Below, piece after piece: positions 1 to 34,585 of a stretch of DNA of 45,874 bases; within the stretch, counting starts at the first letter, position 1, and each line of letters begins with the position of its first letter. A program made the translations under genes and the position numbers. The notes under the pieces were generated by a model. It ran no database searches. It saw nothing but the letters and a program-made list of their open reading frames with translations, and was not told the origin of the DNA. This DNA comes from an uncultured Desulfobacteraceae bacterium (GTDB lineage: Bacteria > Desulfobacterota > Desulfobacteria > Desulfobacterales > Desulfatirhabdiaceae). The DNA lies in assembly GCA_903953895.1 (NCBI GenBank), contig CAJBLH010000209.1, positions 1-45,874 on the forward strand. Reading direction: 5' to 3'.

Positions 1-120
1 GAAAAGGTTAAAATCAGTTCCGGCCATTGATTTGAAGACCTTTTGGAAAAGAAGCTCCAATAAACAGGGCGCTGTCGTTTACGGTAATAAATTCTTATAA
101 TTTTCCATGCAAAGTGTTAA

Positions 121-636: not shown

Positions 637-1060
637 TGCCGATAAGAAGTTGGATGAAATATTAACCAATGATGTTGCCGCCAGGAAGGAATGGGACAAA
701 ACGTTTAAGCTTAAACATGATCCTCGGGTGACGTGGATCGGTCGATTTTTAAGAAAAACCAGCCTGGACGAATTGCCCCAGTTTATCAATGTACTCAAAG
801 GGGATATGAGCATTGTAGGTGCACGCCCTATCGTGTCCCATGAGCTAAGTTGTTACTACAAAGAAAATGGCGGGCTCTACTGCTCCATGAAACCTGGTAT
901 CGCCGGCCCCTGGCAGGTAAGCAATCGAAGCGATACCGAGAATTACGCAGAACGCGTGGCCCTGGATACATGGTATGTGCTTAACCGATCTTTTTGGCTG
1001 GATATGAAGATTATCTTGAAGACGGTGGGGTGTATGATCAGGGGGAAAGGGGCGTATTAG
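607..1060 (+). pseudogene. WbaP/WcaJ-type sugar-1-phosphate transferase, C-terminal remnant
   Basis: The frame encodes the catalytic C-terminal half of a bacterial polyprenyl-phosphate sugar-1-phosphate transferase (PF02397), which starts capsule or O-antigen synthesis at the inner membrane. Visible family blocks are NADKKLDEIL, the KHDPRVTWIG segment, RKTSLDELPQ with the expected Asp-Glu catalytic dyad, GARPIV, MKPGIAGPWQVS and the RVALDTWYV segment, ending RGKGAY as usual. Everything before the NADKKL block is missing, including the membrane helix and phosphate-binding part; intact family members are about 200 to 470 residues, against roughly 145 here. The first possible start (GTG at 614) lies inside the PglZ remnant, so the two genes were joined by a deletion or recombination event near 606-625. 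Function is unlikely. Confidence 0.8.
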
Positions 1061-1107
1061 GGCAGAGGACGGAAATGCGGGATGGCTGAGGGCTGAGAAG
1101 ATAGTGA

Positions 1108-1803
1108 GTGGACAAACTCCTGATCCGGGTTGATTATGACAGTTGGAATCCAGCGATTCTGTCGGGTAATCCGTTCGCCGCATCCATCCAGAATGATAAT
1201 TTTTCGGACCGGGGTTTTTGGATGGAGCTGGAGAAGGACCTTTCCCAGAAGCGGCAGTATCTGGACTATGACAGGTATAAAATTCCGGTAACCAGTGTGG
1301 CCGTATTAGCGGATAACTCACCATTATGGAACCCGCCCCCGTTTCAATACGGGATGTGGGGTTCCACAATGGGCCTGGACTATTTAAAAACAAAACTCCT
1401 TGATTATAAAGATAAATGGCTTTATCTTGAAAACCATGACAACCGTTTGCCATCGTGGTAATGGCCCACTTGAAAGCGCTGGAAACAAGAAAGGACCATT
1501 TGTCAAGAAAGCAGTGGAAAATCGGACTGAAAAAAGCTCCAGTATCAAAAAGGCTATTCAAGAACAGGGGTTTTGAATCTCTACGCGTTTATAGACTGGG
1601 TATTGGCCTTGCCGGATGCGCTTGAGAAAATCTTCCTTGAAGATTTAAGGGAATTTGAAAAGGAGAAAAAAATGCCATATATAACCAGTGCTGAAAGAAT
1701 GGGCAGGAAGGAAGGACGGTGCCTATAATACCTGTGTAAACCTGATCCGGAACATGAAAAAGAATAACCTGACCGGGCAGGAAATTGCGCATCTAAGGAA
1801 ATA
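1108..1803 (+). pseudogene. Rpn family (PD-(D/E)XK nuclease/putative transposase), frameshifted remnant
   Basis: Three reading frames must be stitched to rebuild a protein of the Rpn recombination-promoting nuclease type. The first frame (1108-1461) carries DRYKIPVTSVAVLADNSPLW and the KLLDYKDKW block. Restoring one C near 1441-1447 turns the terminal NRLPSW-stop into NPFAIVVMAHLKALETRKD, the usual continuation of the family. A second shift between about 1530 and 1590 leads to FIDWVLALPDALEKIF and KMPYITSAERMGRKEG, the family's typical end, with a decayed tail (NNLTGQEIAHL) to about 1803. The N-terminal nuclease core is mostly missing. Such genes are numerous in Desulfobacterota and decay often. 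No terminal inverted repeats or target duplication were seen. Confidence 0.8.
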
Positions 1804-2053
1804 TGCGGGAATACACATCCTTTTTGCTTTTACCAACATGAAAAAAATGGCCTCAATTCAAACCATCCCTGCGCGAGTCCAGCTCATGGCTGGTAGTCAT
1901 CCTGCGTCTGGTGGGCAGTGGGATTACAGCGCTTTTTATTTATCCACGGCTCGGTTTACATGATGTAGTCAGCCTGCGCATCGAAAACTGGATTGATTCC
2001 CAATAGCCATTCAATTTTTAGCGAAGTACATAATTCATTTGAAACTACATGAG

Positions 2054-2401
2054 TCAGACCTGTTTCGTCGGATGTCCGGATATCCAGTCACGAAGGGCGG
2101 AGTCAATGCGTGATTGCCAGCCAGCCCCTGTTGCCTTGAAGTATTCAACTACATCAGGCGAAAGCCGAATTGCTAATGATTTTTTTGTAGGAGCTTTTTG
2201 TGGTCCACGGAGTCTTGGACGATGGACTGTGACTCGCGCCAAGTCTTCATCAGTTTTCAGAAAATTATCTGGGTCTTCCATTGCCATTCGTTCAACTTCT
2301 TCTTCAGTTAAGTTGCGGACGCGTTCCCAGTCAGTCATGTCGCCGCCTGCGGCACGCATGGCCTTGATTTCTTCAGATGTCATTCTAACGATTTTGCCCA
2401 T
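2054..2401 (-). CDS. brnA: BrnA family antitoxin
   Basis: This 115-residue protein matches the BrnA antitoxin family (PF14384). It has a charged N-terminal region (SEEIKAM, LTEEEVERMA) and a C-terminal ribbon-helix-helix-type DNA-binding segment, visible as KKSLAIRLSPDVVEYFKATG followed by WQSRIDSALRDWI. In BrnTA systems BrnA binds and neutralises the RNase toxin BrnT and represses the operon. Its start overlaps the 3' end of the brnT remnant by 22 bases, the normal toxin-then-antitoxin order. The coding frame is intact whereas the toxin is frameshifted, so the antitoxin may now act only as a repressor or as a shield against related BrnT toxins. Confidence 0.88.
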   Translation of the reverse strand: MGKIVRMTSEEIKAMRAAGGDMTDWERVRNLTEEEVERMAMEDPDNFLKTDEDLARVTVHRPRLRGPQKAPTKKSLAIRLSPDVVEYFKATGAGWQSRIDSALRDWISGHPTKQV

Positions 2402-2662
2402 AAGTAGTGTCTCCTTTCCTTGCGACTGGCTTTACGCAGCGAGATAAAGCGAACAGCATTACCTCGAACGGTATAGGTGAGAGTCAGGGCCATGAGTTCG
2501 CCCTCAATCATGGGCGACATCGCACCATCGATGTTCATGCGAACGATGACTTTCAGATGTAACCTTGTCGAGTGACTCGTACACAAGATCGCCGTATGAA
2601 AGATCATATCCGTGCTTTTCGATGTTTGTCAGACGTTTGGTTTCATCCCATTCGTAAATCAT
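2380..2662 (-). pseudogene. brnT: BrnT family toxin, single-base frameshift
   Basis: Reading from ATG 2662 gives MIYEWDETKRLTNIEKHGYD, the canonical N-terminus of the BrnT RNase toxin. The frame then stops shortly after RWCDVAHD. Removing one base from the GGG run at 2512-2514 (plus-strand view) restores DVAMIEGELMALTLTYT and continues through FISLRKASRKERRHY to the normal end at 2380, giving about 93 residues, the family length. The catalytic His/Asp/Arg-type residues of the two halves are all present. The lesion is one inserted base in a short homopolymer, so it is either a recent inactivation or a sequencing error. It sits directly upstream of brnA in the standard operon. Confidence 0.82.
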
Positions 2663-3038
2663 GTTTATTGTATATACGATTTGATTTGATTAACCAACGG
2701 AAAAGTTTAACAAGTGCAGCAACACATGAACAATAACAGCAGCCAAAATATTTACGTCTGTGCTGATGCCCGACTGCCCGGACAATTTTGTTCTGCGAGG
2801 GACCGATTGGGTTGAGCAGAAACTTCACCATGCGGGCCTTTTGCCGGACTGTCGACGACATGGTGTAGCAGTGTGGAGTGGGATCAGACAGAGATTAATG
2901 CTGAATTTACGGATATGGCACACATGAACAGTAATGTCGATCAACGTGTGCGTATTTCAGCCCACAGCGGCTGTGGTTAATGATGTCGCGCTATTTTCGA
3001 AGGTCTGGTCGGTACCAATTTGCATCGGGATGGAAAAC
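2663..3038. other. Intergenic region upstream of brnTA
   Basis: About 375 bases without a convincing gene lie between the brnT start and the end of the Fic gene. A 72-codon minus-strand frame (2643-2861) overlaps the brnT promoter region and shows no recognisable motif, so I do not call it. The AT-rich stretch at about 2665-2690 directly upstream of brnT is the likely place for the autoregulated brnTA promoter, but no clear operator repeat could be assigned. Confidence 0.4.
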
Positions 3039-4550
3039 TTAGTTCCTCGCGTATCCCTTTCTGACAGCGTTTTCCATCCTGACCAATTCGTCATCGGTCA
3101 GGAATCCGAAATGCGATTCTCTCTTTCTTTCCGAAAGACGATCGTTGTTTTGCAGGCAGAGCTGGATAAAGAGATCGATGATGCGGTCGGGCATGTCCAC
3201 GATCTCCTGGATCGCCTGCTTGGTCTTGTCGTAATTTACCAGGAAATCGAGTTCTTCCACCAGTTCGTGCGCGATGGTGAGTTTGATGAAATCGTATAAC
3301 GCCTCCGCCTGGGCCGTCATATCGATATACCGATACAAACGCCCGGTCTTACCCGGCACGGTTATCTGGCCGAGATCGTCCAAGTCGTATTCAACCAGCC
3401 GCATCAGTGGGTTTGAGAACGCCTCCAGGGAGTGATCGTAAAGTGCCGGATTTTTCAGCATGGCGGCGGAGACCGGGATCATGAGCCCTTTCGGAATCGC
3501 GCCGCGCAGGAACAGGATGTTGTAAATGAGAAACCGATGAATACGGCCGTTACCGTCCTCGAAGGGATGCATGAAGACGAACCCGTAAGAGATGGCGGCG
3601 GCATGGATAATGGCGGAGACAGAACCTTCCTTCATCACTTGGTGGGCAGTGATCAGGCCCTCCATCAGTTCCGGGAGATCGTCAGGCTTCGGGCAGACAT
3701 AATGAACGAGCTGTTTCTGGTAGGAAATCGTCTGGCCGACGTAGTTCTGGTTGGTCCGGTAGTCCTTTTCTCGGAATCTGGGATCGACGATGCGATTTTG
3801 CACGTCTATCAGGAGAGGCTTTTCGCAAAAATCCTTTTGTTCGGCCATCTCCAGCAGGCCAATGAATTTCTCTGTCCGGGATGCGCTTGGCTTGATGTGT
3901 TCGATCTCGAATGAGGATTTGGTTTCCTTTTTATAAAGATAACTCAATGCCCGTCTGAGAATCTCAGGAGGATAGGAGGTAACGACATCTTCGCACCGTT
4001 TCCGCAGGTCGATTTCTTCCAAGGCGGCGAGTTTTTCGGTGCGCCGGATGATGGGACAGAAGGTTCTTCCGCCAAGCGAATTGTCGATGACCCTTTGACG
4101 CTGCACGCGTCGGCCGGCCGCTGATGTGTAATAACGGTTCGGCTCAAGCAGCTCGATGTAATTCCCCTTGATCATATCCGGCAGCGAGAGTTCCCGTCCG
4201 GTCAAGAATTCGTATATGAACCAAACCCTGCGGACATATTTTCCGGTGGGTTTCGAGCTGATCCAGGCAGCCATCTCGTCTGCCGGGGCCACGTCGAACA
4301 AGGCCGACATGAGTCCCAGGTTGACGCCATCATATTTGAGGGCGAACTCCAGATGGTCGCCCGTCCTATCTCCGGGCCAATAGGACTGGGGATAGATGGA
4401 TTCCACCTGCCCATCCTGAATGGTCGAGCGGAGTGTCCCGGTCGGGCTGACGGCGGACGTGTGCCAGTTCGGCAAAACGCTCAATCCGTAAGTCTCGATC
4501 AGAAACGCATATCCTGCCAGCCTGTTCTGTCTCGTGTCCAATGCCATCAC
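3039..4550 (-). CDS. Fic family protein (AMPylase-type)
   Basis: A 503-residue protein with the complete Fic active-site motif HPFEDGNGR at roughly residues 325-335. In this family the His acts as general base and the motif transfers AMP (or another nucleotide moiety) to Ser/Thr/Tyr of a target protein. The N-terminal 200 residues are helical and family-specific. The segment SFEIEH around residue 215 fits the autoinhibitory (S/T)xxxE pattern, although the usual following Gly/Asn is His here; this part is inference. The C-terminal third is helical and may bind the target or DNA. The start is either GTG 4550 or ATG 4547, with only a weak ribosome binding site. It stands alone between the brnTA remnant and decayed genes, with no antitoxin gene beside it, so any restraint is probably internal. 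Confidence 0.85.
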   Translation of the reverse strand: MMALDTRQNRLAGYAFLIETYGLSVLPNWHTSAVSPTGTLRSTIQDGQVESIYPQSYWPGDRTGDHLEFALKYDGVNLGLMSALFDVAPADEMAAWISSKPTGKYVRRVWFIYEFLTGRELSLPDMIKGNYIELLEPNRYYTSAAGRRVQRQRVIDNSLGGRTFCPIIRRTEKLAALEEIDLRKRCEDVVTSYPPEILRRALSYLYKKETKSSFEIEHIKPSASRTEKFIGLLEMAEQKDFCEKPLLIDVQNRIVDPRFREKDYRTNQNYVGQTISYQKQLVHYVCPKPDDLPELMEGLITAHQVMKEGSVSAIIHAAAISYGFVFMHPFEDGNGRIHRFLIYNILFLRGAIPKGLMIPVSAAMLKNPALYDHSLEAFSNPLMRLVEYDLDDLGQITVPGKTGRLYRYIDMTAQAEALYDFIKLTIAHELVEELDFLVNYDKTKQAIQEIVDMPDRIIDLFIQLCLQNNDRLSERKRESHFGFLTDDELVRMENAVRKGYARN

Positions 4551-6509: not shown

Positions 6510-6827
6510 TTAGACGCAGCCGGTCGGTTTCGGAAGGCCGGCCATTTTACAGGCTCCCTTGCCAGGACCTGACGGAAACAGCTCGTAGATGTGTTTCAGC
6601 TTGAAGCCGGTGACCTTGGAAAGCACGCGAACCATCGGAGCGATACCGTTCTTCTCGTAGTATTCTCTCAGCATGGTGATAACCTTGCGATGTTCTTCGT
6701 TGAGTTCGTCGATACCTTCTTCTTTTTTCACAAACTGGACCCATGCTTCCGACCAGTTGGTGTAAGAATCAATAAAACCGTCTTCATCTACCACAAACTT
6801 TGTACCCTGAAATTCGATTTCTGGCAT
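6510..6827 (-). CDS. dsrC: DsrC, sulfur-carrier protein of dissimilatory sulfite reduction
   Basis: A 105-residue DsrC/TusE-family protein. The C-terminal arm has both conserved cysteines, Cys93 in GACKMAG and the penultimate Cys104 in PKPTGCV, with ten residues between. This is the arrangement of true DsrC, whose arm enters the DsrAB siroheme site and leaves as a trisulfide that is reduced by the DsrMKJOP membrane complex. The N-terminal part (EIEFQGTKFVVDEDGFI) is also typical. A strong ribosome binding site (AGGAGG, 9 bases upstream) precedes the ATG. The gene has its own near-consensus promoter and terminator, so it is monocistronic, as is usual in sulfate reducers where dsrC is unlinked to dsrAB. 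It strongly indicates a sulfite- or sulfate-respiring organism. Confidence 0.96.
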   Translation of the reverse strand: MPEIEFQGTKFVVDEDGFIDSYTNWSEAWVQFVKKEEGIDELNEEHRKVITMLREYYEKNGIAPMVRVLSKVTGFKLKHIYELFPSGPGKGACKMAGLPKPTGCV

Positions 6828-7090: not shown

Positions 7091-7936
7091 TCAATACTCT
7101 TTAGGCATATTCGTCAACTGGGCCAGCGTGAATACCGGCCCGTCTTTGCACACGAATTCTTTTCCCACGTTGCACCGGCCGCACATGCCGATGCCGCACT
7201 TCATCCGATTTTCCAAAGACATGATGATGTGATCATGGGCATAACCCATCTTGTCTAAAACCGGCTGGGTAAACTTGATCATGATGGGCGGCCCGCAGAT
7301 GATGGCAAAAGTATCGGCATCCGCTTCGGGCGCTTTCTGCTCGGTGATGGTCGGCACGAACCCGACATTGTATTTCCAGCCTGGATCATTGGCAGCATCC
7401 ACGGTAATGTGCATGTGGATATCATCGCGGCGTTCCCAGGCTGCCAGTTCATCCCGATACAGCAGCATACCGGGGGATCTGGCGCCGTAGATGACGTTGA
7501 TGTCTTTGAATCTGGATCGGTTGGCCGGATCGAGCATGTAAACAATGGAAGAGCGCAGCGTGGTGAAGGCGAATCCACCACCGATGATCACCACGTTTTT
7601 TCCTTCCAGGGCCTCCCAGGGGTAGGAATTCCCAAGAGGTCCGCGAAGTCCCATAATGTCTCCCACTTTCATGGCGTGCAGAAATGAGGACACCAGACCC
7701 ACTTTGTTGACAGTGAATTTCACAAAGCCTTTTTCCGTCGGAGAAGAGGCGATGCCGATGGGGATTTCCCCTTTTCCGGTAACCGACAATTCCGCAAACT
7801 GCCCGGCTTTGTATGCAAATTTTTCTTCATCTTCGGGATCGAGAAAAACGAATTTGAATGTCTTTAAATTCTTGTCTTCGGTTTCGGTGATGATTTCATC
7901 GATGCGAACCGGATAAGGCATATATGGATTTTGCAC
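7091..7936 (-). CDS. FAD/NAD(P)-binding oxidoreductase, sulfhydrogenase gamma/FloxA-like
   Basis: A 281-residue protein of the ferredoxin-NADP reductase-like family. It has an N-terminal FAD barrel (residues 1-100, AGQFAELSV and PIGIASSP as the flavin motif), a Rossmann domain starting at VVIIGGGFAF (about 114) and a C-terminal 2Fe-2S cysteine cluster CGIGMCGRC with a fourth Cys in FVCKDG. Related subunits (sulfhydrogenase HydG, AsrB, FloxA) pass electrons from NAD(P)H to iron-sulfur partners in the cytoplasm. The start is GTG 7936, preceded by GGGGGAG at ideal distance. It is the last gene of the five-gene hdrA operon, 18 bases after its beta-like partner. The nucleotide-binding motif reads GGGFAFTTLRS instead of the common GGGIG.APLRS, so cofactor preference is uncertain. 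Confidence 0.85.
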   Translation of the reverse strand: MQNPYMPYPVRIDEIITETEDKNLKTFKFVFLDPEDEEKFAYKAGQFAELSVTGKGEIPIGIASSPTEKGFVKFTVNKVGLVSSFLHAMKVGDIMGLRGPLGNSYPWEALEGKNVVIIGGGFAFTTLRSSIVYMLDPANRSRFKDINVIYGARSPGMLLYRDELAAWERRDDIHMHITVDAANDPGWKYNVGFVPTITEQKAPEADADTFAIICGPPIMIKFTQPVLDKMGYAHDHIIMSLENRMKCGIGMCGRCNVGKEFVCKDGPVFTLAQLTNMPKEY

Positions 7937-7954: not shown

Positions 7955-9013
7955 CTAAGCCGGGCAGACGCAGGCTGCAGGATCATAATCGTTCATCTGG
8001 TTGCAGACCTTGCGAATATCAATGTTAACCGGACACAGGCGGATACACCGACCGCAACCCACACACTGGATTCCGTTATCGTACTTGTCCACATAGTATT
8101 TCAGCTTGTGCATGAACCGCTGCCGAACCCGCTGCATTTTTGCGCCCCGGGGGTTATGCCCGGTGCCATGCATGGTAAAGAGCGGAAACATGCAACTGTC
8201 CCAGTTTCGCAGCCGGACACCTGTATTTCCCCGGTTTTCATCCTGAATATCGAAACACCAGCAGGTGGGGCAGGAATAGGTGCAGGTACCGCAGTTGATG
8301 CAGGAAAAAGCCGTATCTTCCCAGAACGGGGCATCATAGATATGCGTGGTTTCCTTGGCTTTTAACCGATCTGTCGAAATACGCGAGGCGATTCTGGATT
8401 CAGCGGCCTGTTTCATGGCTTCGATTTTTCCGGCATCATCGGCCAGTGAGTTCCACCCGGCGGCGGCCAGCAACGCAATGCCTTTATCGGTCAGGGATTT
8501 TGCCAGGAAACGGTCTCCACTGTCCACCAGCAGCACATCGAGGCCTGCCTCGTGAAACGGGCCACACCCGGCGGATGTACAAAAGCAGGTGGGGCACGGA
8601 TCATTGCAGGCCAATCCAACGAAGGTCATGGAATTGTACGCCTTCAGCCAGTAAGGGTCTTGATACTGGGGGGCGTCGAAATTGCGCTTGACCAGTAGAA
8701 ACGCCGCTGCATCGCAAGGCCGGATACCGATCACTGCCTTGGGGCAGACGTCTTCTTGAACTTCTTTTAGAATGTGATGATCCGGCCGGCTTTCGTCCAA
8801 GGTGTAGGTAAACATCGGCTCTGTCTGCGGCTGAACCAGAAATTTCGGAGAAAGCCGGGTATTGGTATATGTCATATCCGGCTGTTCATCTTTGCCAAGG
8901 GCTTTAAAACAATGCCACTCTTTTTCTTTAACCGGACCCAGCACCTGATAAGCCGATTTCGCCTTTTCAATGCCGAGGGCCCATTCTTTTTTGTCGATCG
9001 TGAAAACTTTCAT
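7955..9013 (-). CDS. 4Fe-4S dicluster protein, sulfhydrogenase beta/AsrA/FloxB-like
   Basis: A 352-residue protein of the hydrogenase/sulfur reductase beta-subunit family. The N-terminal 220 residues form the family-specific domain (AVIGIRPCDAAAF; LACNDPCPTCFC around residue 135). The C-terminal part has two ferredoxin-like cluster motifs, CINCGTCTYSCPTCWC and CVGCGRCIRLCPVNI. Such subunits wire the NAD(P)H-binding gamma-like subunit to the rest of the complex. The gene sits between the other iron-sulfur subunit (15 bases upstream) and the FAD/NAD(P) subunit (18 bases downstream), implying stoichiometric co-expression. The family is clear, but the exact name depends on which complex this is. 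Confidence 0.85.
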   Translation of the reverse strand: MKVFTIDKKEWALGIEKAKSAYQVLGPVKEKEWHCFKALGKDEQPDMTYTNTRLSPKFLVQPQTEPMFTYTLDESRPDHHILKEVQEDVCPKAVIGIRPCDAAAFLLVKRNFDAPQYQDPYWLKAYNSMTFVGLACNDPCPTCFCTSAGCGPFHEAGLDVLLVDSGDRFLAKSLTDKGIALLAAAGWNSLADDAGKIEAMKQAAESRIASRISTDRLKAKETTHIYDAPFWEDTAFSCINCGTCTYSCPTCWCFDIQDENRGNTGVRLRNWDSCMFPLFTMHGTGHNPRGAKMQRVRQRFMHKLKYYVDKYDNGIQCVGCGRCIRLCPVNIDIRKVCNQMNDYDPAACVCPA

Positions 9014-9028: not shown

Positions 9029-9976
9029 TTATTTAATAAAATCATTGGGGTCATTCGGTTTGTACGTATCCAGCGGTGGGCGCTCATCCAGGGTCATGCC
9101 GGCTTCCCAGCCGAACATTTCGAAGGCATCCTTGTTGAGTTTGCTGGTAAACTGCCGAACCTTGATGCCCACCGGACAAGCCCGCTCACAAGCGCCGCAA
9201 TCCGTACACCGGCCGGCGCAGTGGTAGGCCCTTAAAAAATGAAACGTGCGGATATCGATGGGATCCTGACTTTTTCCCACCCACTGGGGCCGGGATTCAT
9301 CCACAAAACAGGTCGGGCAGTAGCATAGCGGGCAGGCATTGCGGCAGGCGTAACAACGAATACAAGGTGAGAGCAGGTCTTCGAAATACTGCCATTTTTC
9401 CTGAGGCGACATGGCCTCCACCCGATTGACTTCGGCATAGCGATCCACCCCCGCCTGTTCCGGCACCAGCTCACCCGCCAGTTCATCGAAAAGAACGGGA
9501 TTACGGTGAATACAGGCCGCGCAGTTACTCTGCAGCACATCGGTTTTCTTCAGACTTTTTTCGCTGCCGTGAATTTTGATTTTCAGATTCTCGCCGTCAT
9601 CCGCCACATCCAGCAGGGTATCGCCGAACTCAGAGATAATCCGCCGTTTATCGACCATTCCCTGACAGGGAACACCGATGATATGCAGGTTTTCCCGCTT
9701 GATTTTATTTTCGATAATATGGGTTACGATGTTTCGGGAATCGCATCCTTTGGCCACCACCGCAATCTTTTCCTTCCGATCGGTCAGATAGTTTGCCAGG
9801 TTGATGCCGCAATTGCTGTCCCACACCAGTTGATGGACATCTTCGGGCCGACGGATAAAACAGGGCTCATTCATCATCGGCAGGGTTCCCTTTCGAAACC
9901 CGATGACCATATCAACGCTTCCATCCTTCAAAAGCCGCAGGGCGACTTCTTTAATTTTATCTTGGTATCCGGACAT
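9029..9976 (-). CDS. 4Fe-4S dicluster protein, FloxC/FrhB-like subunit
   Basis: A 315-residue iron-sulfur protein. The first 150 residues resemble the FrhB/FdhB-type fold found in electron-transfer subunits (VVAKGCDSRNI, IIGVPCQGM). Then come CAACIHR, a Cys-rich stretch CIRCYACRNACPLCYCPTC (about residues 209-227) and CTDCGACERACPVGIKV near 263-279. Several [4Fe-4S] clusters are therefore expected. The ATG at 9976 lies one base after the mvhD stop codon, so translation is probably coupled. In Flox-type operons an equivalent protein bridges MvhD/FloxD and the NAD(P)H-side subunits; that role here is inferred from gene order. Confidence 0.8.
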   Translation of the reverse strand: MSGYQDKIKEVALRLLKDGSVDMVIGFRKGTLPMMNEPCFIRRPEDVHQLVWDSNCGINLANYLTDRKEKIAVVAKGCDSRNIVTHIIENKIKRENLHIIGVPCQGMVDKRRIISEFGDTLLDVADDGENLKIKIHGSEKSLKKTDVLQSNCAACIHRNPVLFDELAGELVPEQAGVDRYAEVNRVEAMSPQEKWQYFEDLLSPCIRCYACRNACPLCYCPTCFVDESRPQWVGKSQDPIDIRTFHFLRAYHCAGRCTDCGACERACPVGIKVRQFTSKLNKDAFEMFGWEAGMTLDERPPLDTYKPNDPNDFIK

Positions 9977-9977: not shown

Positions 9978-10409
9978 TTAAGCTACCTTAACTGCTTGTT
10001 TATTATAAGTTGTATTGGGGCCAAGGGCTTTTACTGACGCTGTAACGGTCTTGACCACATCGACAAACTTGGTGGATTCCGCAGAGCTGATCCAGGAAAA
10101 CTGAAGTCGCCCCGGCTCGATTCCCATGTGTTCCATTAAATTCATAAACAATCCAAATTTTCTCCGGGCATAATAATTACCTTCCAGGTAATGGCATTCG
10201 CCGGGATGTCACCCGGAGACCCAGACGGCGTCGGCGCCTTCGCTCAGGGCCGACAGGAAAAATTTCGGACTCATTCTGCCGGTACATGGAATCCGGATCA
10301 CCCGGATATTGGACGGATATTCCATCCGGCCGACACCAGCCAGATCCGCCGCCCCATAACTGCACCAGTTACAGAGAAAACTGACGATTTTGGGTTCAAA
10401 CTCGGTCAT
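9978..10409 (-). CDS. mvhD: MvhD/FloxD-type hydrogenase iron-sulfur subunit, selenoprotein (Sec67)
   Basis: The reading frame has one in-frame TGA at 10211-10209. Reading through it gives a normal 143-residue Mvh[16 protein letters not shown] near the N-terminus, [13 protein letters not shown], then [22 protein letters not shown] and a complete C-terminal domain ending at TAA 9980-9978. The family has Cys at this position (GCHPGDCHY), and selenocysteine there is known for VhuD/MvhD homologues. A stem-loop follows the UGA at the distance expected of a bacterial SECIS. MvhD carries a [2Fe-2S] cluster and delivers electrons to HdrA. Start ATG 10409 has AAGGAG 8 bases upstream. It lies 82 bases after hdrA and directly before the next iron-sulfur gene. 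A plain nonsense mutation is unlikely, since the frame stays intact for 76 more conserved codons. Confidence 0.88.
10176..10211 (-). promoter_or_regulatory. Predicted SECIS element in mvhD
   Basis: After the UGA (10211-10209) come 16 bases, then a perfect 6-bp stem ATTACC/GGTAAT (10192-10187 with 10181-10176) and a UGGAA loop. A short stem with GG in the apical loop, about 22 bases after UGA, is the shape recognised by bacterial SelB. Confidence 0.7.
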
Positions 10410-10491: not shown

Positions 10492-13400
10492 TTAAACTGC
10501 TTCATTCAGCGCAAATATCTGCGCAAATATCTGGTCGTTGTCAAAACCTTTCAGTCGAATGGCGCCGGATCTGCAGGAAGCCACACAGAGCCCGCAGCCC
10601 TTGCAAAGCACGGGATTGATCTGGGCCTTTCCCGGGTTGAAACGGGCAGTCGCCTCGATAAACGATGGTGCGGAATACGGACAAATCGAAACACAGACCC
10701 CGCAACTGCTGCATACCGTGGGAACAACTTCAGCAATGGTTCCACTGGTATGGATGTTCTCGCGGGCTAGCAGGGTGACGGCACGGGAGGCGGCCGCCTT
10801 TCCCTGAACGATGGACTCATCGATGGGTTTGGGATAATGGGCCGTACCGCACAGAAACACGCCGTCGGTAGCAAACTCCGATGGTCCGAGCTTGGCATGA
10901 CGTTCCACAAAAAATCCGTCTGCGTTCAGCGGAACCTTGAAGAAGCTGGCCAGTTTTTCGTCACGGTTGGGAATGATGGCGGTCGCCAGGGTGATCAGTT
11001 CGGTTTCCAGCTCCATGGGGCGGCCCAGAATATGATCGGTGACTTTGACCACCAGCTTTCCGTTGTTCCGAACCACCTGAGGTTTGTTGTCCAGGCTGTA
11101 CCGGATAAAAATCACCCCTTTTTCACGGGCTTTTTTATACAGATATTCCCGTTCGCCGTAGGTCCGGATATCCCGGTACAGGATATAGACGTTCATATCC
11201 GGATTTTTTTCCTTCAACTCGAGAGCATTGTCGATGGAATGCGTACAGCAGACCCGTGAGCAGTAAAGCCGTTCCGGCTCGCGGGAGCCCACACATTGAA
11301 TGAAAACCGCCGCCGCCAGGGATTTGAGGGATTCATCCTTTTCCATGAGTTTTTTGTCGAGTTCGAGACTGGTGATGATGCGCCGATCCTTGCCGTAATC
11401 ATATTCCGTGGGAACGTGGGGAGATGCGCCGGTGGCGATCACCGCAATACCGTGCTCGACGACCTGCTCCGAACCGGTTGTGGACAGTGTGGTTTTAAAA
11501 TTTCCGACAAATCCGTTTACCTGGCCAAGTGTGGTGTTCAGGTGAACCTGTATCCGGCTGTTCTGAGCAACCGACGCAATCAATTCGGATAGTTTTTCCT
11601 GAATTCTTTCACCTTTGGCCGTTTGAAACAAATTGAGGGCCTGGCCACCGAGCTGGGCGGATTTTTCAACGATGTGGGTGTGATACCCCTGCCGGGCCAG
11701 ACTGCCGGCAGCAGCCATTCCGGATATACCGCCGCCGATAACCAGAGCGGTCTGGTTGACCTGAAGCTCCGCCTCTTTCAGAGGCTGCGTGAGGGCCACC
11801 TTGGCCACTGCGGATCGCACCAGATCCTTGGCTTTCTGTGTGGCCAGTTCCGGCGTACTCTTGTGTACCCAGGAATCGTGATTCCGGATATTGGCCATTT
11901 CAAACAGGTATTTATTGAGCCCTGCGCTGATCAGGGTTTCCTGGAAAAGCGGCTCGTGGGTTTTGGGCGTACAGGCCGCTACCACGATCCGATTCAGGTT
12001 TTTTTCCTTGATGAGCTGGGTGATGCTGTCCTGATTGTCTTGCGAGCAGGAATAGAGGTTGTCGGAGGTGAATTCCACAAAGGGAAGCGTTTTGGCATAT
12101 TCTGCAACCGACGGCACATCCACGACACCGGCGATATTGATGCCGCATCGGCAGACAAAAACGCCGATTCTGGGACGCTCACCGGCGATATCGGTTTCGG
12201 GAACGATTTCCGGAACCTTTGTCAGGGTGTTGCGGGCCGCGGAGAGAATTTCACCGCAGGCCGAGGCCGCAGCGCTTGAATCGATGACTGCCTGGGGAAT
12301 GTCTTTAGGGCCCTGGAAAGAGCCGCTGACATAGACCCCGGCTCGCGATGTGGATACCGGCTCGAATGACGATGTTTCGCAGAAATTGCCCGGAGTCAGG
12401 GCGATGCCCAGGCGCTTTGCCAGAGAGACCACTTCCGGAGAGGTTTCCATACCGATCGAAAGGACGATCATGTTGAAGACTTCCGTCTTTAAGTCACCGG
12501 CTTCCGTGATGTAGCGCACTTCGAGGTCATCGGTTTCCGGAATCTGGGTGATGGTATGAACCCGGCTGCGAATAAAGCGGATACCGTGCTTGTTTCGGGC
12601 GCTGTCGTAAAACCGCTCGAATTCCTTGCCGTGGGTCCGCATATCCATGAAAAAGATGGCGCAATCCAGACTGTCGCCCTCGTGTTCCTTGGCGATCACG
12701 GCCTCTTTGATGGCATACATGCAGCAGACCGACGAGCAGTAGGAATGATCGCATTTGTTCATGTCCCGCGAACCAACACACTGAAACCATGCGATTTTTT
12801 TGGGGGACTGATGATCGGAAATCCGGGACACATGGCCCATGGTGGGACCGGATGCGGATAGAATCCGTTCGAATTCCAGAGACGTGACAACATTGGGATA
12901 TTTGGCATACTGGTAGTTATCGAATTTCTCGGGATTGAACGGCGCAAAGCCCGGGGAAAGGATTACCGACCCTACGTTGAGCATGACGGTTTCGGGTTTT
13001 TGATCGAAGTCGACCGCACCGGTCGGGCAGATTTTTTTACAGGCGCCGCATTTTTTCTTTTGCAGATAAATGCAGGTGTTCGCATCGATCGCGTACTTCA
13101 GGGGGACTGCCTGAGCATATTCCACATAAACGGATTTGCGTTGGGAAAGGCCCATGTTGTATGGGTCTTTCACTTTTTTGGGGCATTTTTCCGCACATGC
13201 ACCGCAGGCAATACACTTCGATTCATCGATATAGCGGGGATTTTGAACAATTTCGACCTGGAAATTGCCGGCTTCACCGCGGATGTCTCTAATTTCACAA
13301 AGGGTTTTAAGTTCGATATTCAAGTGCCGGCCGACCTCGACCAGTTTTGGGGAGATAATTCACATGGCGCAGTCATTCGTCGGGAACGTCTTGTCCAACT

Positions 13401-13545
13401 GGGACATGACACCGCCGATGGATGGCGATTTTTCAAGTAGATACACATAATAGCCTGAATTGGCCAGATCCAGGGCGGATTGCATTCCGGCAATGCCGCC
13501 ACCGACAACCAATACAGACCCGATAACAGGGTTTGCGTTCGACAT
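10492..13545 (-). CDS. hdrA: HdrA-like FAD/iron-sulfur protein, long tandem form, selenoprotein (Sec62)
   Basis: One frame of 1017 residues runs from ATG 13545 (GGAG 9 bases upstream) to TAA 10494-10492, interrupted only by TGA 13362-13360. Its context [18 protein letters not shown] is the place where HdrA has a conserved Cys or Sec. The N-terminal module has an FAD motif (VVGGGIAGM), the Sec motif, and ferredoxin motifs at about 111 ([12 protein letters not shown]) and 166 (CGACKKICP). From about residue 460 a second, canonical HdrA module follows: CRCGINIAG, the [11 protein letters not shown] segment, a second FAD motif (VIGGGISGM, near 604), YCSRVCCTH, and C-terminal ferredoxin motifs [12 protein letters not shown] and [11 protein letters not shown]. 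HdrA is the flavin bifurcation centre of heterodisulfide-reductase-type complexes. No hdrB or hdrC gene is adjacent, so its partner disulfide reductase, if any, is encoded elsewhere or absent. Confidence 0.92.
13327..13362 (-). promoter_or_regulatory. Predicted SECIS element in hdrA
   Basis: After the UGA (13362-13360) come 15 bases, then a 6-bp stem CUGGUC/GGCCGG (13344-13339 with 13332-13327, including two G-U pairs) and a GAGGUC loop. Distance, stem size and the GGU in the loop match a bacterial SECIS and closely parallel the element in mvhD. Confidence 0.7.
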
Positions 13546-13617
13546 AATGGCTCTCCTATGCTTAATTTTATCAAAAACGTCGGCAACGTTCGGCTTCAGA
13601 AATTTAAATAAAGTTTC

Positions 13618-13865: not shown

Positions 13866-16800
13866 TCAATTGACCAGTGCCGAGACCTGCCTTTGCCCGG
13901 TTTCACGCAAGGCATCCGCCAGCAGCCTCTCGTAATGACCATGTGCCGCTGAATCCAACGATCGCCACACCAGAAGCTGCCGTCTGATGGCGTTCAGAAA
14001 TGCCTTGTTGATGCGTCTCCAGGCATTGGACTCGCCGGATTGGCGTTCTATCTGAACAGTGACTTCCAGAAAACCGGGTTCTTCCCGAGATTGACAAAAA
14101 CGCAGGACGATCTGCTGCATGATGCCGAAATCAAACGGCGCCAGCCAGACATGGGCGTTAATGACAATACAGGCATCTTTGGCGCAGTTTTCCCCCTCAC
14201 AGGCATCGATATTGCCAGAAACCGGCGGTACCGGGCAGACTTCGCTGAAGGTGATGTCACCGGTGGAAAACAGACCGTGGGAAACATCCTGGTGGCCTTT
14301 TAAATAGTCATACAAAAATCCGGTGATGCTGCGATGTTCTTCATATTTCATCAGAAAGGGAAGGGTGATTTCTATCAGATTTCCCGTGGATGCGGGAAGG
14401 GTCCAGGACCGGTTGACGTCGGGGATGGCGATTTCTGCAGCGACCCGCGATGGGTAAATGGCCGATATCAGCACAACCAGGATTACCAGAACCATGGCGG
14501 CCACACCGGAAAGCGATGAGTAGTTGACGGTGATTCCCGACCACAGCGAGGTGCCGGCAAAAAGACCGGCGCTGGTCTGGGCCAGAAGATAACCCATGAC
14601 GACACTCAGCACGGCAAAGGCCAGGGCTTCGGCGATAAAAAGAAAGCTGACATGAGAGGGGGCCAGCCCGACGGACGTATAGATGGCGATTTCTCGCTTG
14701 CGTTCATAAACGCTTCCGATCATGGTGTTCAAAACGATAAAGACCGAAATGATGATCGGAATCAAAATGTTGGGCACCCCGCTGTAGCTTAAGGCGTCAC
14801 TGGCGTTATACATCTGGACGCCGTCAGGCTCGCCGCTGAACAGGGCCAGGCCGAAACGGTCAACCAGGTGCTGGGCGGCTTTGCGGGTGTCTGTTGCTGC
14901 CGTATGCCGGACCGCGATGGCCTTCAGCTTTCCGCCGGAAGACAGCAGGGTCCGGGAGGGAACGATCACGGTCAGGTCTCCGGAAATATGCTGATATCGG
15001 CTCTGAAAGGATCGGACATCATCTCCGGATTCCATGGCCTCCATCTCGACTTCGGTCAATTCCTGAGAAGCTTCACGGGGAAAAATGGCGGGCGTCAGAG
15101 GTTCACCGTCCAGGTCGGGCCGATCTTGAAGGAGCTTTCCGGAAAAAATACCGGTTACCTGAAACGGAATTCCCCATATCTGAACGACGGCGGACTCCGG
15201 ATGTTCGAAAGAAATTCCCAACTCCCGGGCCATGCGATCGGAAATCAGAACCACATGGCGTTCTTCGGGTTTGAACCACCTGCCGCCGATCAGAATTTGA
15301 TCGAGTCCCGTAACACCGGGTTCATCGGACGACAGGCCGATCATGCCCTGGGCTTCGAATCTGCGGCTGCCGTATCGCAGCGGGACTGCCTCGGATCGGG
15401 TTCGGTCTTCGTCTTCCAGCCATACCCGCGGAGCGATGACGCCGGAATCATCGAAGGCATGGGTCAGTACCGGAAGGGCTGCCTGGGGAATATCCTGCCA
15501 GCTCACATTTTTTAAGAGAAAACCCGAGTAAGGCGCCTGGGCCTGATATTGAATTCTGGAATGAAGCCGCATGCTCTTCACCGACGTGAAGCTCATGATG
15601 GTAAAGGTCAGGATGATCAGCGTCGCACAGGTCAGGGCTGTTCGAATTCTGCGGCGCCGAAGATTGCTGACCCCCAGAAAAAATGAGGCGGTAAAGGCTT
15701 TCCAGCGGGTGATTTCGCCGGTCGATGCCGGCTTTGCACGGTTTTGAAGGGTGTTCATTTCCGTTTCGAACCGCAGAAAAATGATCAGTGTCACCATAAA
15801 CGACAGGCCGATGATGAAAAAAGCCAGAATGACGACAAGCGGACTATACGCCAACTGAAAGGCCGGGTGAACCTGGTAGATGATGACGATCACGATAACC
15901 AGAATGACGCTGAAGGCGATGATCCGCCTGTAGATGTTGGAATAAGAGAACAGAAGCCGTTCCATGCAGAAAGCAAAGGGAACGAACAAGGCGATGTAGA
16001 ACAAGACGCCGAAAAGTACATCTTTCTGCGTCTGTTCGATATCGTCATAGACGCGGCTGGCAAGCGCCCATGACGCCGAGGATGACTCGATGAACCGGTC
16101 GTATTTTCTATCTGTAAAGGACTGCTCGGCGGTTTGCAGGGCGGACATGCCTTCCTGCTGAAGTCTTCGGATCTGTTCGTTGAAAATGCCGTGTTTTTCA
16201 AGGTTGTTTATCCGCGGGGTCAAGAGCGCCCACATATCTCTTGCCGCCCGGTATTCGGTGCGGTCGAGGATTGGCCAGTCGTCGATCCGGTAGCCCGTTC
16301 CTTCGGAATGCGCGGAGTCTGCATGGAGCAAAATCATTTTCTTGTGAAGCACGGAATCCGATAATGTCAGTTTCAGGCGGGTTTCAGGCTCCAGAAAAAT
16401 GGATGTCAGCACCGAAGACCGGGTGTCGATCCGGCTGTACCAATACTTGAGAGGAGCGGCTTCCCGCCGTCCGTCGATCAGGTTGATCTTGGTCATGTAC
16501 CGGAAGCTGCGCGGTTCCATCAAATTAAACAGAGTGGTGCCTTTGCAGGCGAACATGATCAGGTCGGTCTGCATGGCGGTGCGCTGCATTTTCAGGCGAT
16601 AGGCTTCTTTTCCGGTCTGCTCTTTGTCGATGGCCCACGAGACTTTGCCGGTGTCGGGGTCGAACCGGTACCCTTCGATGATCACTTTGTCCAAAACGTG
16701 TCTTTTATCGGCAACCCCCTTGATCTGAAAGGTGCCGAGACTGCTGGTCATCGCATAATACCTGGCATTTCCCTGATAAGAGAGAAGAACGGTTTCCGGA

Positions 16801-18770
16801 GCCGGCTGATCGGCGAACAGCTCTCCGTGCCGGATAAAATTGGCGCGGCCGCTGACCGTGGAGAACCCGTTCTGCGGCAGGTTTTCGTCGTAAAGGACAG
16901 GGGTGGAGGCAACGCGGGAGATCAGGGCGCACACCTGACGGCTTTGTTCCGTGGCATACGTCCAGTCGATGGCGTTCGGAACATCATCGGGTGTTCCCCA
17001 GAGATGTCTGGCGTCATGGATGGTCGCCAGCGTGGCGCCGATATAACCGGCCAGTGTGCTGACTTCGCCGCCGAAAAATGGGCGATCCGAAAAATAACTC
17101 TGCCAGGTTCTAAGCTTGCTGGGCCGTAATGTATCCCGGAAAAGGGGCAGTTGCGCGCTGATTTGATTCATGGCGCCGTCCAGGGCCGAATAGACCGAGG
17201 ACCGGTTGACACTGGGCTTCAGGGAATAAAGCCATCCCTGACTGAAAGCCCCGAACCCGTCACCATGGCTCGACAGATGCAGCGAAATCGCCACCATCAA
17301 CTCCCGGCTTTTGATCATGGATCGAAAGTCCAGTGCATTGTCAAGAAGCTTGGTCTGATTGGTGGCATCCCGGAGAATGGCTTTCTGGCGGAGGATAACG
17401 GCAGGCATCAGCCGATCCAGCGCGGTTTGCTCTTCGGAAGACAGGCCCTTGAATGCGGATAGCCAGCCCAGTTTTCGCAGCAGAAGCCTGTCTTTGGCCA
17501 GTTGTTGTATTTGTTCCTGATTGGCCGCGTTTTGCTGCTCAAGCCGCATGCGCATCAAATCCCGGGAAATTTCATCCACCTGGGTTTTGATTTCATCACT
17601 GATGGCTTTTTTAACCAGCGTTTCCTGCGGCGCATCTTCAGGATCAGCATTTTCGGCAGGTTCCGACGATTTGGGAGCAAGTGCATTCAGAACTTTGCGT
17701 GTATTTTTGGTTAGATCCCGCAGATGTTTCTTTTGCTTGCGCAGATCCTTGGGGGAAGTTCTCAGACTCCAGATCAGATCCCTGATGCCGGCCAGAGTCT
17801 GCGCGTGGCCGCTGGTGGCTGCCAGCAGAACCGAGCGATCGGGCGGTGTTTCCCGGAGCCGGCGGGCAAGCTCTATCAGGGTGGCGACGCCAACGGATTC
17901 ATCCGCACCCGGAGACAGTCCCGGTACATAGGCGGAGCTGTCGTAAAACGCCTCGATCATGATCAGTTCTTCCTGAAGATCGGGATTTCGGCCGGGGATC
18001 AGGCAGTAGATATTTTCGCTTGAAACCTCTTTCCAGTTGACGTCGGAATTCAGCCGGACCTCCGGAAATATCTGGCTGTCCGGTGCGGTTTCAAAATCTC
18101 CGAAACAGCGCCGGGCTTCTTCTATGGAAATTCGGAAACGGGGAAAGTGAATGGGAGAGAGCTCTTGTTTATCTTCAAACAATCCGCGTGAAGAGCCGCC
18201 CCGGTCTACGTAAACCAAAGCCGTGGCCCCGAGCGAAGCCGCTTGAATCCAGTTTTCGCCAGAGTCCAGTTCCATCAGCAGAATGGCCCCGGCGATGATT
18301 TTGCCGTTTAATTCATTCAGGGCGCCGGTACCGGCATAAATGAGCGGTCCTGTCAGCCCCTGGGGATCGATGGCCTGGGGGGAAACGGCATTGCCCAGAA
18401 GCGGATGCAGAGAAACCGTCGCACCACTTCCTGAAATGGTCATCAGGCTTTTTCCATGCTGAAGGATCGGAATTGCATAGCGATGTACGCCGACCTCGGA
18501 AAACCCCGATTCCTGAAACTGTTTCTGGATATATTGCGCCGCAGACCGACAGCCTGGCGTTCCCGTGCTTCTGTCTCCGAATGCGGACAAGGCGACAATA
18601 TCTGTTTCAAAATCGCCAGCTCCGGCGCTGGAAAACCCTGTCAGGACAATCGCCGCCATCAGCAGCATCCGAAAGCAGAACGGCGAACACTTCGCCCCAA
18701 TATGCCCGAACAGATTTTTCAGGACGCGGAGCAGCGCCGACACACCCAGTTGTAAGAAAAAATGATTCAT
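13866..18770 (-). CDS. M28 peptidase-like domain fused to FtsX/MacB-type ABC permease
   Basis: A 1634-residue membrane protein. Residues 34-52 form a signal or anchor segment. Residues 55-340 resemble M28 aminopeptidases with an inserted PA-like subdomain, but the metal ligands are degraded: the usual AHYDS is AFYDS (274-278), and the Glu-Glu pair after the VLLAATSG strand is missing. A helical, Gln-rich coiled-coil region (about 385-440) and a large beta-rich extracytoplasmic part follow. Next come three transmembrane helices near 990-1080, a MacB/FtsX N-terminal helix (RIRTALTCATLIILTFTIMS), a periplasmic core and the last FtsX helices (RKREIAIYTSVGLAPSHVSF is the cytoplasmic coupling motif). 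A 190-residue C-terminal extension has several Cys (CEGENCAKDAC). It is the last gene of the operon, 4 bases after the ATPase, and is likely a lipoprotein- or envelope-related transporter with a non-catalytic substrate-binding peptidase fold. Confidence 0.85.
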   Translation of the reverse strand: MNHFFLQLGVSALLRVLKNLFGHIGAKCSPFCFRMLLMAAIVLTGFSSAGAGDFETDIVALSAFGDRSTGTPGCRSAAQYIQKQFQESGFSEVGVHRYAIPILQHGKSLMTISGSGATVSLHPLLGNAVSPQAIDPQGLTGPLIYAGTGALNELNGKIIAGAILLMELDSGENWIQAASLGATALVYVDRGGSSRGLFEDKQELSPIHFPRFRISIEEARRCFGDFETAPDSQIFPEVRLNSDVNWKEVSSENIYCLIPGRNPDLQEELIMIEAFYDSSAYVPGLSPGADESVGVATLIELARRLRETPPDRSVLLAATSGHAQTLAGIRDLIWSLRTSPKDLRKQKKHLRDLTKNTRKVLNALAPKSSEPAENADPEDAPQETLVKKAISDEIKTQVDEISRDLMRMRLEQQNAANQEQIQQLAKDRLLLRKLGWLSAFKGLSSEEQTALDRLMPAVILRQKAILRDATNQTKLLDNALDFRSMIKSRELMVAISLHLSSHGDGFGAFSQGWLYSLKPSVNRSSVYSALDGAMNQISAQLPLFRDTLRPSKLRTWQSYFSDRPFFGGEVSTLAGYIGATLATIHDARHLWGTPDDVPNAIDWTYATEQSRQVCALISRVASTPVLYDENLPQNGFSTVSGRANFIRHGELFADQPAPETVLLSYQGNARYYAMTSSLGTFQIKGVADKRHVLDKVIIEGYRFDPDTGKVSWAIDKEQTGKEAYRLKMQRTAMQTDLIMFACKGTTLFNLMEPRSFRYMTKINLIDGRREAAPLKYWYSRIDTRSSVLTSIFLEPETRLKLTLSDSVLHKKMILLHADSAHSEGTGYRIDDWPILDRTEYRAARDMWALLTPRINNLEKHGIFNEQIRRLQQEGMSALQTAEQSFTDRKYDRFIESSSASWALASRVYDDIEQTQKDVLFGVLFYIALFVPFAFCMERLLFSYSNIYRRIIAFSVILVIVIVIIYQVHPAFQLAYSPLVVILAFFIIGLSFMVTLIIFLRFETEMNTLQNRAKPASTGEITRWKAFTASFFLGVSNLRRRRIRTALTCATLIILTFTIMSFTSVKSMRLHSRIQYQAQAPYSGFLLKNVSWQDIPQAALPVLTHAFDDSGVIAPRVWLEDEDRTRSEAVPLRYGSRRFEAQGMIGLSSDEPGVTGLDQILIGGRWFKPEERHVVLISDRMARELGISFEHPESAVVQIWGIPFQVTGIFSGKLLQDRPDLDGEPLTPAIFPREASQELTEVEMEAMESGDDVRSFQSRYQHISGDLTVIVPSRTLLSSGGKLKAIAVRHTAATDTRKAAQHLVDRFGLALFSGEPDGVQMYNASDALSYSGVPNILIPIIISVFIVLNTMIGSVYERKREIAIYTSVGLAPSHVSFLFIAEALAFAVLSVVMGYLLAQTSAGLFAGTSLWSGITVNYSSLSGVAAMVLVILVVLISAIYPSRVAAEIAIPDVNRSWTLPASTGNLIEITLPFLMKYEEHRSITGFLYDYLKGHQDVSHGLFSTGDITFSEVCPVPPVSGNIDACEGENCAKDACIVINAHVWLAPFDFGIMQQIVLRFCQSREEPGFLEVTVQIERQSGESNAWRRINKAFLNAIRRQLLVWRSLDSAAHGHYERLLADALRETGQRQVSALVN

Positions 18771-18774: not shown

Positions 18775-19536
18775 TCAAGCTTCGCTCAATGAGCCAAGAC
18801 CGGGGATGGTATTGATCTGTCCGATGGAAATGGACAGCTCTTCCCGGTTTTCGATTTTGTCGATGCGGCCATCCCGAATCCAGACGACCTGGTCCGATAC
18901 GTTCAGCATCTTGATGTCATGGGTGGCAGAGATGATGGTGACCCCGCGCTCCCGGCTAAGCTGCTTCAGCAGGTAAATAATTTCCTCACCCGTGTTCAGA
19001 TCCAGGTTTCCCGTGGGTTCATCGGCCAGAATGATGGCCGGGTCATTGGCCAGGGCGCGGGCAATGGCCACCCGCTGCTGCTGCCCTCCGGACAGTTCAA
19101 AGGGTTTGTGCTGAAAGCGATCCCCCAGACCCACCATTTGCAGAAGCTTGATGCCTTTTTCCGCAGCCGCATCATCGGCCATGCCGGCAAACGTCATGGG
19201 AAGGGTGACGTTTTCCAGGGCGGTCATGACCTGGATGATATTGAATGTTTGAAAGATATAGCCGATTTTCCGGCACCTGAGCCAGGCCAGTTCATAGGCA
19301 TCGAGCTGAGCGATATCCACTTCGTCGATGAACACTTTTCCGGTGGTCGGTTTGTCGAGCCCGCCGATCATGTTGAACAGGGTGCTTTTGCCAGAGCCCG
19401 ACGGCCCCATGATGGAAATATAATTTCCGGCGGCGATTTCAAGGTCAACCCCTTTGAGCGCCATCACATCCAGTTTGCCTAGCTTGAAGGATTTGGTCAC
19501 CTGGGTAACCCGGACGATTTTTCTGGAATCAGTCAT
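18775..19536 (-). CDS. LolD/MacB-type ABC transporter ATP-binding protein
   Basis: A 253-residue ATPase with Walker [10 protein letters not shown] (about residue 43), the Q-loop in YIFQTFNII, the signature [15 protein letters not shown], Walker [13 protein letters not shown] and the switch His in SATHDIK. The sequence groups with ATPases that drive FtsX-type mechanotransmission permeases (LolCDE, MacAB) rather than importers. It lies between the short FtsX permease (20 bases upstream) and the M28-FtsX fusion (4 bases downstream). The transporter is therefore presumably a heterodimer of two different permeases with an ATPase dimer at the inner membrane. Confidence 0.93.
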
Positions 19537-34550: not shown

Positions 34551-34585
34551 TCCGGCCTTTTTATCATCTGATTTTTCCAACTTCT

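Follow-up and report, generated by a model that had tools for sequence, protein, structure and literature searches.

The gene hdrA in a 45,874-nucleotide stretch of DNA from an uncultured Desulfobacteraceae bacterium (contig CAJBLH010000209.1; the whole stretch is hereafter called the window) probably encodes a selenoprotein. The gene (10492..13545, minus strand) specifies a fused two-module, type II-like HdrA of 1017 residues, in which the in-frame UGA codon 62 (13360..13362, minus strand), aligned with Cys197 of Methanothermococcus HdrA, would be decoded as selenocysteine (Sec) through the SelB pathway under the direction of a hairpin that follows it. We put this explanation, taken as a whole, at a probability of about 0.7. 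At the level of sequence it is supported by the conservation of the UGA, its exchange with Cys, the hairpin, the Sec machinery of the genome, the domain anatomy and the gene neighbourhood, and it is from these that we infer selenium in the HdrA protein.

An in-frame UGA exchanged only with cysteine codons

The hdrA frame starts at the ATG at 13545, five nucleotides behind a Shine-Dalgarno-like AGGAGAG (13551..13557, minus strand), and ends at 10492, with 955 codons open past the UGA; this bears out the preliminary description of the window, made from the letters alone, which had reported an in-frame TGA at codon 62 and a frame of that length beyond it. The product is a clear HdrA relative: solved HdrA chains match it with E values down to 6.5e-198, and it matches NF040770 (HdrA2) with an E value of 3e-285 and 948.3 bits in three stretches, which misses the curated cut-off of 1100 and therefore makes it a homologue of that family and not a member by its rule. 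Comparison with the relative L066 (93% protein identity), in which the TGA is kept, yielded 8 synonymous and 3 amino-acid differences in codons 1–61 and 338 synonymous and 72 amino-acid differences in codons 63–1017, which argues for protein constraint both upstream and downstream of the UGA.

To follow column 62 across relatives, we scanned all loci for the surrounding motif on both strands with all stop codons allowed; some genomes are counted twice because two collections were used. The scan gave 164 placements (142 distinct contexts), with TGA in 138 (117 distinct), TGT in 18 (18) and TGC in 8 (7), and none of them held TAA, TAG or any other codon. At this column, for which the preliminary description had proposed a check for Cys or Sec, the scan found UGA or Cys only. 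An alignment-based count, which cut frames at TAA and TAG and is therefore blind to those stops, placed the column in 125 of 131 HdrA-like frames: TGA stands in 89 and a Cys codon (TGT or TGC) in 15, L030 among the latter being without the motif, and 21 placements fell on flavin regions without the motif. HdrA matches were found in all of 75 genomes (that of the window and 74 relatives), the 21 top-scoring rows having one TGA each (one row also has a TAG) and the TGA-less rows ranking below them. Two named strains, Desulfoluna spongiiphila (L143) and Desulfatitalea alkaliphila (L117), have a UGA in their hdrA. A quickly built tree of 91 genes, 77 with Sec and 14 with Cys, requires at least nine changes between Sec and Cys, eight of them forced by well-supported branches.

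The UGA might also be an ordinary stop, a sequencing error or the mark of gene decay, TTG 13323 then serving as a restart site for translation. A list of open reading frames under the standard code does present the same DNA as a 943-residue frame from this TTG, and a GAGG stretch, itself part of the hairpin, lies 11 nucleotides ahead of it. The restart product would lack the first flavin adenine dinucleotide (FAD) motif, however, and the coding constraint upstream of the UGA, the recurrence of the same UGA in many genomes, the Cys-only exchange, the hairpin and the Sec machinery all speak against a stop. We rejected this explanation, which the comparison of relatives contradicts, as hardly credible.

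The Sec machinery is encoded in the genome of the window (5.47 Mb, 315 contigs, listed as 100% complete): selB, tRNA-Sec, selA and two selD genes, all over curated cut-offs, were found, each of the two selD genes with one in-frame TGA. All the genes that the preliminary description had wanted to see in the genome are therefore present, and the absence of selB or selC, which it had named as evidence against Sec, did not occur. Within the window itself, ARAGORN found no tRNA. The open frame alone names no residue, and suppression or an altered code might place some other amino acid at the UGA; the Cys-only exchange, the Sec machinery and the in-frame TGA in each selD leave this a negligible chance, and we rejected it.

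The window genome holds six further HdrA-like matches with an in-frame TGA. Such matches lie at C279:49682-56608, C75:14034-17057, C182:34964-36094, C61:42289-46710 and C63:12255-13037; two of them are in tandem, and the C61 match is perhaps HdrL-like with an insert. Short HdrA-like fragments in an order unlike that of an intact gene (L032 and L033, contig C184, at ~10.6–11.5 kb) lie near one selD; one fragment has Cys replacing Sec, and they are possibly decayed.

A near-invariant SECIS-like hairpin follows the UGA

Bacterial selenocysteine insertion sequences (SECIS) are hairpins located just 3' of the UGA, with a G in a small apical loop. The hdrA hairpin, CTGGTCG-AGGT-CGGCCGG (13327..13344, minus strand; 18 nucleotides, codons +6 to +11 past the UGA), begins 15 nucleotides after the UGA and folds as a stem of seven base pairs with an AGGU loop, and so has the placement and the apical G of such an element, its stability alone being unremarkable.

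For this comparison we used distinct rows that scored 900 bits or more in the alignment, 76 of them Sec genes and 14 Cys genes. The 18 nucleotides CTGGTCGAGGTCGGCCGG are exact in 73 of the 76 Sec genes versus none of the 14 Cys genes, and at codons +6 to +11 the synonymous entropy ranges from 0 to 0.28 bits among Sec genes and from 0.95 to 1.82 bits among Cys genes. In Sec genes it is low at codon +5 too (0.26 bits), and most other nearby codons have 0.7 to 2.4 bits. A phylum-wide sample of Desulfobacterota (297 genomes searched; 30 loci compared, 20 Sec and 10 Cys rows), which partly overlaps the first in that 6 of its 20 Sec rows were already included there, gave the exact hairpin in 17/20 Sec rows and 0/10 Cys rows. 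The remaining three Sec rows read TTGG...CCGA, keeping the outer pair as U-A, a compensated change that is also visible in a further comparison. A scan of the window at Rfam gathering thresholds returned no match. The evidence for this candidate SECIS is synonymous conservation together with covariation, not folding energy.

The fused HdrA probably acts as its own heterodimer

Module 1 (12181..13545, minus strand; residues 1–455) starts straight at the flavin motif and comprises a thioredoxin reductase (TrxR)-like FAD domain with an inserted ferredoxin; it bears U62 within a CxxU motif as well as E226 and K280, and has no N-terminal cluster domain. Module 2 opens with such an N-terminal cluster domain (11776..12180, minus strand; residues 456–590), followed by a second TrxR-like domain (10756..11757, minus strand; residues 597–930) without CxxC/U and a C-terminal two-cluster ferredoxin domain (10546..10728, minus strand; residues about 940–1000). 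In the alignment to Methanothermococcus HdrA (5odc_A), U62 corresponds to Cys197, C59 to Cys194, E226 to E356 and K280 to K409, and the N-domain cysteines 11, 13, 46 and 71 correspond to C465, C467, C500 and C525 of module 2, each of which is present in all of 91 genes. Over the flavin region of module 2 (598–748), Cys occurs in at most 5 of the 91 genes at any column.

This is the arrangement of a type II HdrA, with two TrxR domains per chain, one half lacking the N-domain and having the Cys197 site (here Sec), and the other half the reverse. In HdrA dimers, the N-terminal cluster of each copy is reported to receive Cys197 of its partner as a ligand, this cluster lying on the ferredoxin branch, and in tandem or fused HdrA proteins the N-domain and Cys197 are reported to be present in complementary fashion (PMC9012536; here and below, publications are cited from excerpts of their text). 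Since the only N-domain of the window protein sits in module 2, the loss of the motif from module 2 is probably an instance of this complementarity and, since the Cys197 ligand is given to a partner, Sec62 probably ligates the module 2 cluster. The fused HdrA would then probably be its own heterodimer, its two halves acting within one chain like the methanogen HdrA homodimer: Sec62 of module 1, in the place of Cys197, is most likely a selenolate ligand of the N-domain [4Fe-4S] cluster of module 2, and this cluster would be placed on the branch leading to ferredoxin. The preliminary description had correctly recognised tandem modules, Sec in the N-terminal one at a position where HdrA proteins keep a cluster-binding Cys, and a missing motif in module 2; the alignment agrees, U62 falling on the reported ligand (PMC9012536). 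Its placement of the selenolate-ligated cluster beside the flavin of the Sec-bearing module was not supported: in solved HdrA the ligand goes to the partner's N-domain, which is present here only in module 2.

A structure model is consistent with the two-module anatomy. AlphaFold2, given 49 sequences (the window protein and 48 relatives out of 68 candidate frames), produced a confident whole-chain model with a predicted local distance difference test score (pLDDT) of 87.5 and a predicted template modelling score of 0.88; an alignment-free model (pLDDT 34.7) was not used. Among the matches listed by the structure searches, which report the nearest chains only, model residues 6–437 fit 8rwn_A (Z 32.3, root-mean-square deviation (rmsd) 1.3, 424 aligned), and residues 597–928 fit the thioredoxin reductase 3cty_B (Z 21.4, rmsd 4.0, 290 aligned).

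Sec62 could instead be a redox-active selenol beside the module 1 flavin, like the redox Cys of flavin disulfide reductases, and no cluster ligand. Module 1 has the flavin fold of the disulfide-reductase type, Sec is often catalytic, and the stretch CxxU-IISPK resembles what we take to be the active-site region of glutathione reductase; since C59, a possible partner of U62, is invariant, a redox role is compatible with the sequence. Against this role, which we consider unlikely, stand the report of the aligned Cys197 as a cluster ligand across the dimer (PMC9012536) and the complementary distribution of N-domain and Cys197 over the halves of fused HdrA, which fits ligation.

The two flavins of the fusion appear to differ. 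The residues proposed as marks of bifurcation, K409 and E356 (PMC12054007), are both present in module 1 in 91/91 genes and in module 2 in 0/91; in the window protein, the E356 and K409 columns fall on D730 and D772 of module 2, and across the 91 genes position 730 is D in 76 and position 772 is D in 30 and K in 28. Because the pair is confined to module 1, different roles for the two flavins, as the preliminary description had suggested, gain support, indirect as it is, with module 1 as the bifurcating one. Module 1 probably carries the bifurcating flavin, judging from these residues, and module 2 would relay electrons; that HdrA bifurcates at all is itself suggested by the residue pattern. 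Two bifurcations per chain have been suggested for archaeal type II HdrA, and in methane-metabolising archaea both key residues are retained by 75% of the type II sequences (PMC12054007), but with both E and K in module 2 of none of the 91 genes, and the substitutions just given, we regard double bifurcation in this family as quite improbable.

A split form with a small Sec gene

The least expected result came from a group of relatives that match the window HdrA only from about residue 123 onward. In these, the N-terminal 122 to 125 residues, which include U62, are encoded by a gene of their own, about 135 residues long (for example L098 4681-5085, a 135-residue UGA gene). The small gene is followed by a nuoE-like gene (PF01257, E 6e-46), a nuoF-like gene (PF01512, E 6.6e-42) and a 1088-residue frame in which a NuoG-like [2Fe-2S] domain (PF13510) is joined to the rest of HdrA (L083, L098); the genes mvhD to dsrC, described below for the window, come after the NuoG-HdrA fusion as far as the contigs reach. 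The preliminary description had counted relatives with a separate downstream start at the UGA as evidence against Sec. Relatives with a separate downstream gene do exist, but the break falls near residue 124 and not at the UGA.

The NuoG-HdrA fusion is present in 21 of 22 candidate split loci, the last, L104, having another form. We found the small gene in 11 loci (L083-L085, L088-L091, L095, L098, L111, L138), with the TGA and the exact hairpin in 11/11; at the other 10 fusion loci, judged from positions, the sequence ends too close to hold it. A search of 144 relative genomes for the small protein gave matches at an E value of 1e-66 or better in 26, with a TGA inside the match in 26/26 (one also has a TAG and two a second TGA); 25 of these matches lie in open frames of 129 to 202 residues and the remaining one in a frame of 10839 residues. 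Ten of these small-gene loci were examined: nine have the TGA and the exact hairpin, and one has the TGA with an unreadable hairpin. Within the genus of the window, the small gene occurs in G001, G003, G004 and G005 and the unsplit gene in the window genome and G006; G002 gave no match to the small protein at E 1e-66.

The remainder of module 1 keeps E226, K280 and the four cluster cysteines in all 8 alignable fusion frames (of 15), which is most easily explained by the small Sec protein completing the flavin site in trans. We tentatively propose, at somewhat less than an even chance for the two parts jointly, that the fused HdrA halves share a [4Fe-4S] cluster for which Sec62 provides a native selenolate ligand, this cluster being part of the ferredoxin branch in a complex of NAD(P)H, ferredoxin and DsrC, and that the ~135-residue selenoprotein of the relatives must assemble with NuoE, NuoF and NuoG-HdrA to complete the bifurcating flavin site. 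Genes of the form hdrA_N-unknown-hdrA_C are mentioned in PMC1794560, and nuoEFG is listed with mvhD and hdrA in Desulfotignum in PMC4046663; a Sec-bearing split was not found in the excerpts of these two papers, most subscription literature lying outside our search.

At L104, an HdrA frame (2-3478) cut by the contig end has a GltD-like stretch ahead of the HdrA part and is perhaps an HdrL or type III form; mvhD to dsrC-like genes follow it.

The gene neighbourhood ends in dsrC

Five genes follow hdrA on the minus strand. Directly after it lies mvhD (9978..10409; FlpD family, floxD-like; 143 residues; PF02662, E 1.7e-50) with a second in-frame UGA, its codon 67 (10209..10211), in the context VSG-U-HPGECHY. 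It is followed by a SECIS-like hairpin, ATTACC-TGGAA-GGTAAT (10176..10192), found from the window sequence alone, with a folding z of -2.08 for a 57-nucleotide stretch. Next come a 315-residue iron-sulfur protein (9029..9976; Fer4_8, no NCBIfam match), an AsrA / sulfhydrogenase-beta-like iron-sulfur protein (7955..9013) and an AsrB / sulfhydrogenase-gamma-like FAD- and NAD-binding subunit (7091..7936), both under NCBIfam cut-offs, and the three are possibly floxC-, floxB- and floxA-like, respectively. The last is dsrC (6510..6827; TIGR03342 and PF04358, both over cut-offs), whose tail GACKMAGLPKPTGCV has two cysteines; the only other DsrC-family match in the window genome has one tail cysteine. 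The genome also has dsrA. The preliminary description had left out both the UGA of mvhD and the cluster ending in dsrC.

Among 52 relatives with room for mvhD, its UGA column holds U in 23 and C in 6 and is not determined in 23, and the HdrA/MvhD residue pairs are U/U in 23, U/C in 2, C/C in 4 and C/U in none, with 23 not determined. Of 43 loci with room, 18 have all four genes after mvhD, dsrC included; among the 16 of the 43 whose identity is at least 64%, the full cluster occurs in 15, the exception being L078.

As in Hdr/flox, MvhD-like and NAD(P)-binding flavoprotein genes lie beside hdrA. Hdr/flox was proposed in 2014, when it was biochemically unstudied, to bifurcate electrons from NADH to ferredoxin and to a heterodisulfide carrier such as DsrC (PMC4215793). 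HdrA, the UGA-encoded MvhD, the two iron-sulfur subunits and the AsrB-like NAD(P)H flavoprotein probably form an Hdr/flox-like complex, which would couple NAD(P)H, ferredoxin and DsrC (tri)sulfide; NADH and DsrC are its likely partners.

Several observations weigh against parts of the explanation put forward here. The window hairpin shows no unusual stability (z -0.14), and under synonymous shuffling the folding z values of 81 Sec genes cannot be told from those of 14 Cys genes (p 0.12). The tree of Sec/Cys changes carries one long-branch warning. Model residues 55–57, near Sec62, have a pLDDT below 50, and Cys197 ligation has been published for Cys enzymes, from which ligation by Sec62 would be an extrapolation. 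The full cluster is lacking at 25 of the 43 loci with room. Finally, a scan of six proteins of the cluster, not extended to the remaining genome, showed no HdrB-like domain and neither hdrB nor hdrC, which are expected of Hdr/flox; the link to DsrC therefore rests on gene neighbourhood and a literature proposal.

Relation to known HdrA systems

The window protein adds to kinds that are already known. Sec-HdrA in Deltaproteobacteria was reported in 2006 (PMC1794560), the CxxU motif is tabulated in a 2026 review (PMC13188914), and Sec-HdrA is further covered by PMC2702500 and PMC5109826; the preliminary description had itself called Sec-HdrA known in some methanogens and deltaproteobacteria. Fused HdrA (PMC9012536, PMC12054007) and Hdr/flox (PMC4215793, PMC4287179) have likewise been published. 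In the excerpts of the Sec-HdrA, fused-HdrA and Hdr/flox papers cited we found neither the near-invariant hairpin, nor the split Sec gene, nor Sec at the inter-module ligand site together with the loss of the bifurcation pair from module 2.

With the known Sec-HdrA of Deltaproteobacteria and methanogens the window protein shares CxxU, an adjoining Sec-containing MvhD/FrhD and sulfate-reducer hosts, and it differs in having Sec in module 1 of a fusion; whereas the archaeal-type Sec-HdrA operon has hydrogenase genes, the window has AsrA/AsrB-like subunits and dsrC. With type II and fused HdrA it shares the two TrxR domains and the division into a Cys197 half without N-domain and an N-domain half without Cys197, but it has Sec for Cys197, and its module 2 is without the bifurcation pair. 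Its halves come in the order described for type II in PMC12054007, where the N-terminal half comes from the class without N-domain; this is the reverse of the order stated in PMC9012536 for its forms from anaerobic methanotrophic archaea. Hdr/flox of Desulfovibrio (PMC4215793, PMC4287179) likewise has HdrA, MvhD-like and NAD(P)H-flavoprotein genes, with DsrC as a proposed acceptor; the window cluster differs from it in the lack of hdrB/hdrC among the genes scanned, in including dsrC and in its HdrA being a UGA-encoded fusion. Module 1 superposes on HdrA of Methanothermococcus (5odc) and Methanothermobacter (8rvu, 8rwn) with rmsd 1.3–1.8 over 423–429 residues; these solved proteins differ in having one module per chain and Cys at 197 in the deposited sequences.

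The hdrA and mvhD of the window and the small split gene of the relatives look broken when read with the standard code, and gene callers lose such proteins. Outside a small set of well-studied proteins, Sec-metal contacts are predicted from Cys homologues (PMC13188914). The fused HdrA family, in which one and the same enzyme occurs naturally with Sec and with Cys, bears on why some iron-sulfur proteins place Sec at a ligand position, and the prediction for it is a Sec-ligated cluster between the modules, on the ferredoxin branch.

Other reading frames of the window

Three further frames of the window, read by eye, appear to join unlike parts. On the plus strand, a 578-residue frame (26460-28196) has an IspH-like part joined to a UbiA-type membrane protein. 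On the minus strand, a cation-efflux-like protein is apparently joined to a DoxX-like membrane domain (33066-34625), and a 1634-residue frame (13866-18770) has a peptidase-like part seemingly joined to a permease of the FtsX/MacB type, with an ABC ATPase-like frame (18775-19536, also read by eye) adjoining it.

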